DNA from: Luminiphilus sp.
GTDB lineage: Bacteria; Pseudomonadota; Gammaproteobacteria; Pseudomonadales; Halieaceae
DNA: 51,084 nt
Reading direction: 5' to 3'
Assembly (NCBI GenBank): GCA_016779445.1
Contig: JADHNP010000008.1
Location: forward strand, 1-51,084
Translations under genes and position numbers: made by a program
The notes under the pieces: generated by a model
Database searches by the model: none
What the model saw: only the letters and a program-made list of their open reading frames with translations
What the model was told of the DNA's origin: nothing
In this document: positions 12,567 through 15,141 of the stretch, in pieces
Layout: each line of letters starts with the position of its first letter
Numbering within the stretch: position 1 is the first letter of the stretch

Positions 12567-13442
12567 CTAAGCGATTAGGACCGTACGCAGTTTTTTCATC
12601 GCGTTGGCCTCCAGCTGCCTGATTCGCTCGGCCGAGACATCATAAAGCGCCGCCAACTCGTGTAGCGTGGATTTATCGTCGGTCAACCAGCGCCGCTCCA
12701 AAATGTCGCGACTACGGTCGTCTAGATCAGCCAGTGCCAATTGCAAACGCGCGGTGCTATCCTTCGCAAAATCAGCCGCTTCAACCAGCTGTTCAGGATC
12801 CACTTGCGTATCGGCAAGGAAGTACTGGGGAGCTTGCCAACCCTCCTCATCATCACACTCGGGAGGTGCGTCGTAAGCCACGTCCCGACTGGCAAGTCGG
12901 CCCTCCATTCGAGTCACTTCCGCTTCATCCACACCGAGGTCTGCCGCGATGGCCCGAGTTTCCTCCGCTGATAACCAACCCAATGATTTTTTTTGACTGC
13001 GCAAATTGAAGAATAATTTCCGTTGCGCTTTAGTCGTCGCTACCTTAACGATTCGCCAATTGCGCAAAATATATTCGTGCATCTCCGCCTTGATCCAATG
13101 AACAGCAAAAGAGACCAGCCGCACGCCTTTGGCCGGATCAAAGCGCTTAACAGCCTTCATCAGTCCGACATTTCCCTCTTGGATCAAGTCCGCCTCTGCC
13201 AGTCCGTAACCCGAATAGCTCCGCGCTATATGGACGACAAACCTTAGGTGCGCCAAGACCAACTCACGGGCTGAGTCGACGCAATCATCATAAAAAAGCC
13301 GCGCCGCCAATTCACGTTCACGCTCAACCGATAGCACAGCGATGCCGCTAACGGCCTGAACATAGGCCCCAAGGTTGGCGCCCGGCGCCATATTCAGTAC
13401 CGCGCTGTTTGGCAGCGCCAGTGCCTGCTTGGTTTCTGTCAT
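12567..13442 (-). CDS. rpoH: Heat-shock sigma factor sigma-32
   Basis: RpoH directs RNA polymerase to heat-shock promoters. The 291-residue product has region 2 with [19 protein letters not shown] (85-103) and [20 protein letters not shown]. The diagnostic RpoH box QRKLFFNLR (140-148) follows, and a region 4 helix-turn-helix near the end ([20 protein letters not shown]). The start ATG at 13442 is preceded by a strong ribosome-binding site, GGAGGA, six bases upstream. A perfect CIRCE operator lies 33 bases upstream of the ATG, between ftsX and rpoH, pointing to HrcA control in addition to the post-translational control usual for sigma-32. Confidence 0.97.
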
Positions 13443-13474
13443 GTTCTCTCCTCCAACGAGGTAATGGCGCTATT

Positions 13475-13501
13475 TTAGCACTCTAACGGCCAGAGTGCTA
13501 A
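13475..13501. promoter_or_regulatory. CIRCE operator (HrcA binding site) upstream of rpoH
   Basis: TTAGCACTC (13475-13483) is followed by exactly nine bases and then GAGTGCTAA (13493-13501). Both arms match the CIRCE consensus at all 18 positions with the canonical 9-nt spacer. The element lies in the 86-base gap between the ftsX stop and the rpoH start. There is no T-run on the minus strand after it, so it is not an ftsX terminator. HrcA binding is inferred from the match; hrcA is not in the window. Confidence 0.93.
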
Positions 13502-13528
13502 ATACAAAAGACTATGTATTTCAAAGGC

Positions 13529-14482
13529 TTACTGCTTATCTAGCTGCCTAAAGTGCCTTTGACAAGCCATCCAAGAGGCAATCCAGCCCAGAACCACCGC
13601 TACCGCCAACAGCCCCAACGGGTAGTGAATGCCAGGCCACTGTAAGCGCTGCTGACTCTCGTAAAGGATAAATAGCGCGTTAACTGGTCCCGCCAACCAG
13701 CCACAGAACAGCCACAACATCACTGCGCCCAGTGCGCCTCCGCCCAGCCCGTACCACAACCCAGTATATAAAAACGGCCTGCGCGCAAATGCTGAGGAGC
13801 CGCCGATCAGCCGGACGACTAAAATCTCGTCTCCTCGGGCGACAACCGTAAGCCTGAGGATATTTCCCAGCGCAAGCACTGTCGTCAGCAGCATCATTGC
13901 GCCCACTGCCAGCACCCATCTTGATGCCGCGCGGAGCCCCTCCTCCAGCCGGATCATCCAAAGCGTATCCAGCACGACTTGGTCCACACCGTTGCTGCTC
14001 TCGAGTCGCTTGGCGAGAAGCGTACTGTCTTTTTCTGGGGCGGTGTTGTGCAGCGATACCAGCAAAGTGTGTGGAAGAGGGTTACGTGGGAGTGACTCGA
14101 GTAAAGGATTCAGTCCAGTCAGCGCAATGAATTGTGATAGCGCTTCGTCTCTGGGGATAAGCTTAACCCGCGCGACTTCAGGCCAATTCGTTATCGCTTG
14201 CTGTAAGTGCGTTGCATCATCCAAATCCATTTGTTCCGTCAGCAGCAACGAAAACTGCGGGGGCCGCTCAAAATGAGAGGTCACCGAATTCAGATTATTT
14301 ACAGTGAGTAAAAGGCTGGCGGGCAATGCGAGTGAGAGCGCCACCAGAAGCCATGTCATGAAGGTGGAGAGCGGTCGTCCCTGCAGCTTCTTCCAACTGC
14401 TTGCGGCGGCAGACTGATGCTGAAGAAGCCACACCGGCCACCAACGCCACAGAAGTCGCTCGCGAAGCAGGGATATTTTCAT
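13529..14482 (-). CDS. ftsX: Cell division protein FtsX
   Basis: FtsX is the membrane half of the FtsEX ABC-type complex at the division septum, which relays ATP hydrolysis to periplasmic activation of peptidoglycan amidases. The 317-residue protein has a cytoplasmic N-terminal stretch, one transmembrane segment at about 43-63 (TWLLVALSLALPASLLLTV), a periplasmic domain of roughly 100 residues, and three further membrane segments in the C-terminal half with a cytoplasmic-loop stretch (ILRLTVVARGDEILVVRLIG). Its ATG overlaps the ftsE stop (ATGA), indicating translational coupling. Confidence 0.95.
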   Translation of the reverse strand: MKISLLRERLLWRWWPVWLLQHQSAAASSWKKLQGRPLSTFMTWLLVALSLALPASLLLTVNNLNSVTSHFERPPQFSLLLTEQMDLDDATHLQQAITNWPEVARVKLIPRDEALSQFIALTGLNPLLESLPRNPLPHTLLVSLHNTAPEKDSTLLAKRLESSNGVDQVVLDTLWMIRLEEGLRAASRWVLAVGAMMLLTTVLALGNILRLTVVARGDEILVVRLIGGSSAFARRPFLYTGLWYGLGGGALGAVMLWLFCGWLAGPVNALFILYESQQRLQWPGIHYPLGLLAVAVVLGWIASWMACQRHFRQLDKQ

Positions 14483-15141
14483 GATGCATCACCCGCGACC
14501 AAGCTGCCCGAACTGAGGGTGACAATTCGATGGCGGAGTCGGCAAATCAAGGGCATATCGTGTGTGGCAATCAGGACCGTCACGCCCACCTGATTGAACG
14601 CCTCGAACAAAGACATAATCTCAGACGATAGCTGGGGGTCAAGATTTCCGGTGGGTTCATCAGCAATCAGAAATTCAGGCCTCGCTACCACCGCCCTGGC
14701 GATCCCAACGCGCTGTTGTTCCCCGCCTGACAGGCTGGCGGGGTCCGCTCGCTCACTCGCAAGTAAACCCACTTTATCCAGAGCTGCTCTCACTCTGCGG
14801 GTTATGTCACGAGGAGAAAAGCCGGCTATCTCCAGCGGCAGTGCCACATTGTCGTGCACACTGCGGTCAAACAGTAGCCGGTGATCCTGAAATACCACGC
14901 CAAATCGCCTGCGATATCGGGCGACCGCACCACCGGTTAAATGCGTTATCCGATCTCCATTGACCCTGATCTCTCCACCTGTAGGGCGATCCAATAATAA
15001 CAATAGCTTTAGCACCGTGCTCTTGCCGGCACCAGAGTGGCCAGTCAAAAAGGTCATTTCGCCTTGGTCAACAGCCAGATTCAGATTACGCAGCGCGTGC
15101 TGATCTCCGTGTCGCCGGCTGACACGATCAAACTCAATCAA
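14479..15141 (-). CDS. ftsE: Cell division ATP-binding protein FtsE
   Basis: FtsE is the ABC ATPase partner of FtsX. In 220 residues it shows Walker A GHSGAGKST (34-42), a Q-loop in VVFQDHRLLFDRSVHDNVA, the signature LSGGEQQRVGIARA, Walker B FLIADEPTGNLD, and the switch histidine in IATHD. The start is a TTG at 15141 (reading MIEFDRVSRRHG, matching the family N-terminus), with AAGGTGG about ten bases upstream; no in-frame ATG fits. It follows ftsY by a 39-base gap, the conserved ftsY-ftsE-ftsX order. Confidence 0.95.
   Translation of the reverse strand: MIEFDRVSRRHGDQHALRNLNLAVDQGEMTFLTGHSGAGKSTVLKLLLLLDRPTGGEIRVNGDRITHLTGGAVARYRRRFGVVFQDHRLLFDRSVHDNVALPLEIAGFSPRDITRRVRAALDKVGLLASERADPASLSGGEQQRVGIARAVVARPEFLIADEPTGNLDPQLSSEIMSLFEAFNQVGVTVLIATHDMPLICRLRHRIVTLSSGSLVAGDAS

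Follow-up and report, generated by a model that had tools for sequence, protein, structure and literature searches.

The window, by which we mean the whole 51,084-nt stretch of Luminiphilus sp. DNA analysed here, carries ftsE, ftsX and rpoH in succession on the minus strand, with a predicted HrcA operator (CIRCE) between ftsX and rpoH (Table 1). RpoH shares 99 percent identity with its counterpart in the Halieaceae MAG CPC75 and 74 percent with the HTCC2080 protein.

Table 1. Positions of genes and regulatory features around rpoH in the window.
Feature	Positions	Strand	Support and remarks
rpoH, heat-shock sigma-32, 291 aa	12567-13442	minus	TIGR02392 377 bits (cut-off 323.1); NF005143 406 bits (cut-off 241)
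rpoH ribosome-binding site GGAGGAGAG	13446-13454	minus	between CIRCE and ATG; from sequence reading
TGCTAAAAT, extended -10-like box	13472-13480	minus	downstream CIRCE arm plus three bases
CIRCE, predicted HrcA operator	13475-13501		arms 13475-13483 and 13493-13501; spacer 13484-13492
TTAGCA, -35-like	13496-13501	minus	start of CIRCE; 18 nt spacing to the -10
gap between ftsX stop and CIRCE, 27 nt	13502-13528	minus	sigma-E-type -35 here in most relatives, none clear in the window copy
ftsX	13529-14482	minus	TIGR00439 264 bits (cut-off 255); upstream of rpoH, co-directional
ftsE	14479-15141	minus	TIGR02673 269 bits (cut-off 264.85); 4-nt overlap with the ftsX start

The operator reads TTAGCACTC-TAACGGCCA-GAGTGCTAA, without a mismatch over its 18 arm positions and with a 9-nt spacer, and lies 32 nt from the rpoH ATG and 27 nt from the ftsX stop. 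These values bear out the initial annotation, which had reported a CIRCE perfect in both arms and in spacer length just upstream of rpoH. Its estimate that an exact match is expected about once per million windows is also sound; for 18 fixed bases, 51,058 positions and equal base use we recomputed a chance expectation of 7.4e-7 per window, or 1 in 1.35 million. No other match at up to three mismatches is present in the window or in the assembly (2,468,255 bases), and none of 100 dinucleotide shuffles of the window gave a match at this threshold. The reversed pattern, used as a control, matched at two places in the same assembly, at three mismatches. An origin of the CIRCE as a chance palindrome was rejected in view of the chance expectation, the shuffles and the uniqueness in the assembly.

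We compared 80 named rpoH loci and took the nearest 67 (L071-L137, 68-99 percent identity) as a Halieaceae set; most of their titles give Halieaceae or one of its genera, and some give only Gammaproteobacteria or are otherwise titled. Sufficient upstream DNA for testing was available for 66 of the 67, and all 66 have a CIRCE at rpoH, 60 with no mismatch and six with one. Non-conservation in near relatives would have refuted the initial annotation, and the element is kept in all of these 66. The arms are near-invariant over the 66 loci, with individual positions 91-100 percent identical. The first spacer base is T in every locus; positions 2-9 are at 35-74 percent. Four of the remaining 13, more distant loci (L141, L142, L149 and L150) carry a CIRCE at up to two mismatches within the 400 bases searched; at this threshold and over this length none was found in the loci titled Pontibacterium, Amphritea, Marinobacterium and Neptunomonas.

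In a sample of the order, all 11 other genomes of the family have two CIRCEs, one of which is at rpoH in 11 out of 11. The second is at groES in all nine family members whose second site was read (G077 and G201 not included). Furthermore, a CIRCE at rpoH is found in many gammaproteobacterial families. A class-wide scan, biased towards the composite site because its pattern contained GAACTT, placed 12 of 30 fetched loci at rpoH, 17 at groES and one at neither. The initial annotation had regarded CIRCE as normally located at groE or dnaK/grpE. The arrangement at rpoH is not unique to the window, given these families and a CIRCE upstream of rpoH that has been published for the Deltaproteobacterium Geobacter sulfurreducens (PMC545781, Table 8). 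As in the window, the Geobacter rpoH site is a perfect TTAGCACTC-N9-GAGTGCTAA, there at -51, and the groESL of that species also has a CIRCE (PMC545781). Geobacter sulfurreducens carries a further CIRCE at hrcA-grpE-dnaK-dnaJ, whereas the 4-kb hrcA locus (L002) of the window's genome has none at up to two mismatches. An overlapping promoter is not mentioned for the Geobacter rpoH CIRCE in the accessible portion of that paper.

The absence of hrcA would likewise have refuted the initial annotation, and the gene was found in the window's genome (G000:C69:15316-16317; 311 bits against a cut-off of 197.2). It is adjoined downstream by grpE, identified from a reading of the protein, and rpoE is also present (G000:C20:1982-2533; 286 bits, cut-off 236). 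Across 293 genomes of the order, hrcA was detected in 76 and a CIRCE at up to two mismatches in 90, with 74 genomes having both, two hrcA only, 16 CIRCE only and 201 neither (Fisher p 1e-50, not corrected for relatedness); the reversed control pattern matched 11 of the 293. In the two genomes with hrcA only (G022 and G186), rpoH could not be found either. When we located the site by rpoH coordinates, a CIRCE was present upstream of rpoH in 21/21 hrcA-positive genomes (12, 7, 1 and 1 with 0, 1, 2 and 3 mismatches, respectively) versus 0/19 hrcA-negative genomes at up to three mismatches. Each of the 21 positives had, however, previously been seen to contain a CIRCE at some place in the genome, and 17 of the 19 negatives had been seen to contain none, which makes this second comparison a weak one; more weight belongs to the 293-genome table.

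These comparative data already contradict the proposal that the site is a chance palindrome or a functionless remnant, to which we attach virtually no credence. Although 12 relatives in which an rpoH CIRCE is accompanied by no detectable hrcA might be cited for a remnant, the chance expectation is minute, the element is kept across many families, and the window's own genome encodes HrcA.

The CIRCE at rpoH carries promoter-like bases. Numbering its positions from 0 towards rpoH, the downstream arm gives TGCTAA at 21-26, and at rpoH loci this arm together with the three bases after it reads TGCTAANNT, an extended -10 box. The window pair, TTAGCA-18-TAAAAT with TG before the -10, scored a 9/12 consensus match in a promoter scan and meets the sigma-70 extended -10 pattern (TGN-TANNNT, with a -35 at 16-18 nt). 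The third base after the CIRCE (position 29) is T in 66/66 loci of the Halieaceae set and 63/64 other rpoH loci, compared with 5/38 groES CIRCEs, and the mirrored base on the opposite side of the operator is T in 11/66 and 4/64 of the rpoH loci. TGNTANNNT is thus found at the box register (TGN-TANNNT) in 129 of 130 rpoH CIRCEs as against 5 of 38 at groES, and in the class-wide sample all 12 rpoH loci have the third-base T and the extended -10. The 130 loci were gathered by the presence of CIRCE and rpoH, and part of the order-wide CIRCE loci were selected for CIRCE presence. As the 130 are related and some are nearly identical (the 64 that lie outside L071-L137 have 61 distinct upstream ends), p-values are uncorrected for phylogeny.

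Because the base that completes the -10 is kept at nearly all rpoH loci but at few groES loci, we now favour, from sequence alone, a housekeeping-type (sigma-70) promoter for the window copy despite its overlap with the CIRCE. The weak point of this reading is the -35-like TTAGCA, which matches only 4/6 sigma-70 consensus positions and is present in any CIRCE. As a rule, transcription starts about 7 nt after the -10 box. Such a start would lie just past the CIRCE, and hence bound HrcA would be expected to cover most of the promoter core. The initial annotation's reading of the site as an operator is supported, but it had overlooked the promoter sequences of which the operator forms a part.

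Most relatives have, in addition, GGAACTTTT or a close form of it immediately before the CIRCE. GAAC starts at -14 to -16 in 49/66 loci of the Halieaceae set (with two more at -13) and in 58/64 others, that is in 107/130 rpoH loci in all versus 0/38 groES loci. Similarly, TCNRA occupies CIRCE positions 7-11 in 39/66 and 41/64 rpoH loci (80/130) versus 4/38 groES loci; on the other strand it occurs in 1/66 and 12/64 rpoH loci and in 8/38 groES loci. Most relatives therefore fit a sigma-E pattern of GAAC(TT), N15-16 and a TC-type -10, with the final two bases of the upstream arm forming the beginning of the -10. Eight of the 12 class-wide rpoH loci have GAAC at -15 or -16 by our own count, again in the composite-biased scan. 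In HTCC2080 the rpoH locus (L087) combines the CIRCE and the extended -10 with a sigma-E-type -35, TGAACTTTT, and its sigma-E -10 reads TCTCT. Since a sigma-E-like match upstream of rpoH was also obtained, with a loose pattern, in 5 of 19 hrcA-negative genomes, the sigma-E-type rpoH promoter is probably independent of CIRCE. The rpoH P3 promoter of E. coli is sigma-E-dependent.

The related AlgU consensus is given as GAACTT-N16/17 followed by TCtgA (PMC10651043) or TCTNN (PMC7641640), and rpoH of P. aeruginosa is described as AlgU-controlled (PMC7641640). Its promoter resembles that of most relatives of the window in having a GAACTT -35 and a TC-type -10 about 15-16 nt downstream (PMC7641640), but in the relatives an HrcA operator lies over the -10 box, and the window copy is without the -35. 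The spacing in the relatives is mostly N15 or N16. N15, the commonest in Halieaceae, is one below the AlgU N16/17 of those sources and counts against the sigma-E reading.

For the window copy itself a sigma-E promoter was not supported, the best -35 score being -5.2 (background p 0.15) with a -10 candidate that reads TCTGG. Scores in L071-L083 reach at most 3.15 (p 0.012), so that no clear -35 is evident in the window's clade; GAAC is in place in 51 of 53 loci of L084-L137, the 51 on which the scoring matrix was trained. As the window and 13/13 of L071-L083 retain an intact extended -10, while the sigma-E reading fails in the window, the window's clade probably relies on this box. Separately, an extra dyad of the CTGAA...TTCAG type occurs within about 25 nt upstream of the CIRCE in nine loci (L073-L077, L079, L080, L082 and L083); its outer pair does not match in L073-L075 and is either C-G or T-A in the rest. 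In the window's wider clade this dyad overlaps the position that a sigma-E -35 would take; it is not evident in the window.

A groEL gene was not matched with TIGR02348 or PF00118 in the window's assembly. As this assembly is only 86.8 percent complete the absence is most likely a gap, with which any groE CIRCE would have been lost, and the loop of GroE, HrcA and sigma-32 is accordingly incomplete in the genome as assembled. The circuit suggested by the initial annotation can hence be seen there only in part, namely in the rpoH CIRCE and hrcA, and its groE portion is inferred from relatives. In nine of nine Halieaceae groES loci (L034, L035, L037, L039, L041, L043, L045, L048 and L050) a sigma-32-type promoter follows 6-7 nt after the CIRCE, and four of the nine have TTGAC at -27. 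With this arrangement sigma-32 could direct groESL transcription from a promoter immediately beyond the operator, and HrcA bound there may either leave such transcription untouched or impede it. The hrcA-grpE gap of the window's genome also contains a sigma-32-type promoter (CTTGAAA, then CCCCCA). One further locus, L061, has two overlapping CIRCE-like sites with one and two mismatches, in tandem at a single groES promoter.

The operator, its conservation, its co-occurrence with hrcA, the promoter-like overlaps and the sigma-32-type promoters at groESL and grpE can all be read from the sequence. From them we infer, with high though not complete confidence, that the CIRCE is a working HrcA operator that represses rpoH transcription by covering its promoter; binding, repression, GroEL sensing and the use of either promoter are deduced, and there are no binding or expression data that bear directly on repression by HrcA. 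In the proposed model free GroEL would keep HrcA folded and DNA-bound, in line with the stimulation of HrcA by GroE described for other species (PMC6032397, PMC8119881), and HrcA on CIRCE would block RNA polymerase at rpoH and groESL. Once unfolded protein occupies GroEL, HrcA would release the DNA and rpoH would be transcribed. Sigma-32 would then raise GroESL, GrpE and DnaK, by which HrcA activity would be restored and rpoH turned off again, so that GroE, HrcA and sigma-32 would form a negative feedback loop acting via rpoH transcription. The arms of the rpoH CIRCE resemble a promoter of the housekeeping type (TTAGCA, 18 nt, TGC-TAANNT), which is present in the window, and in relatives with the sigma-E-type -35 a single site would respond to both envelope stress and chaperonin load.

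Read-through from ftsEX into rpoH is possible, and it could be that HrcA occupies the CIRCE to little effect, with most rpoH mRNA arising from such read-through or from another promoter. The three genes are co-directional, the distance from ftsX to the CIRCE is short, and a scan of 13200-14700 reported no terminator-like site on their strand; near-invariant arms at every testable Halieaceae rpoH locus, with promoter-like bases around them, nonetheless make this unlikely. Still less likely in our judgement is a main role of the CIRCE at the RNA level, where it would form a hairpin in the rpoH leader and influence mRNA stability or translation instead of serving as a DNA operator. Its dyad is perfect and near the ribosome-binding site, and some genomes without hrcA keep it, but the arms are fixed in sequence and do not covary, and CIRCE presence tracks hrcA. 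Moreover, under either promoter reading transcripts are inferred to start inside or just after the CIRCE, and the mRNA would therefore not contain the whole hairpin.

Repression by HrcA through the rpoH operator, which remains our preferred reading, shares the operator and repressor family of the classic HrcA-CIRCE system at groESL of Caulobacter and Helicobacter, as described in PMC8119881 and PMC6032397, and groESL is a target in the window's relatives as well. Unlike in those systems, the operator in the window is also placed at the sigma-32 gene, and its arms serve at the same time as putative promoter bases. No report of an HrcA operator overlapping an rpoH promoter was found in the literature searched, nor one that treats sigma-E, rpoH and hrcA jointly. 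Of earlier work, the 2003 study of Permina and Gelfand bears most closely on this question, and it may already include some gammaproteobacterial rpoH genes with a CIRCE. With a CIRCE at rpoH already published for Geobacter, what appears to be new here is its interweaving with predicted promoter boxes. The best-known control of E. coli sigma-32 is at the protein level via DnaK, GroE and FtsH (PMC6032397), and many gammaproteobacteria appear to have a transcriptional loop as well, in which the chaperonin-sensing HrcA acts on rpoH. If this is true, cytosolic and envelope stress would be integrated at rpoH, and the coexistence of hrcA with sigma-32 would be explained. In the marine bacterium of the window, as in many relatives, two heat-shock circuits known from textbooks thus appear to be joined as one.

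Repression by HrcA alone does not explain the 12 genomes that have a CIRCE at rpoH (0-2 mismatches; G195 by coordinates) while hrcA is undetected. They belong to the 16 CIRCE-only genomes; the other four (G107, G138, G233 and G259) have two-mismatch matches with neither rpoH nor groES adjoining, which look like chance. An assembly gap as the cause of the missing hrcA was tested via the grpE neighbourhood in the 12. In eight (L248, L249, L252 and L256-L260) recN lies beside grpE with no space for hrcA, and in G195 (L250) a 48-aa hrcA remnant is left between recN and grpE. The remaining three grpE loci (L251, L254 and L255) gave no hrcA match and their neighbourhood is unresolved, whereas both positive controls (L253 and L261) had hrcA at grpE. 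All nine partial RecN proteins match RecN models at E 6.6e-80 or better, eight of them under the full-length cut-off. L203-L205 likewise have no hrcA between recN and grpE, with a CIRCE kept at rpoH.

Genus g23 (G016, G091 and G145), in which hrcA was not detected, has arms that differ at 0-1 of 18 positions, and third positions of its rpoH genes are 46-60 percent identical. Should hrcA have been lost once in the ancestor of this genus, something other than HrcA must keep the arms, although with genomes 96, 79 and 65 percent complete we cannot wholly dismiss an hrcA that has moved elsewhere and escaped assembly. The promoter overlap is a candidate for this retention; it does not obviously require all 18 bases. 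More generally, several relatives may keep CIRCE after loss of hrcA because its arms are promoter parts. That the rpoH arms are also core promoter elements, so that CIRCE outlives HrcA and either promoter function or an unknown protein keeps them, is a tentative idea which we think has a real but minority chance of being correct. In G087 and G195 a groES CIRCE is still present, with two mismatches. No CIRCE was found in other sampled members of the family of G249, a genome that is 99 percent complete and in which hrcA was not detected; G249 itself has a one-mismatch CIRCE at rpoH (L027) with GAACTTTTT before it.
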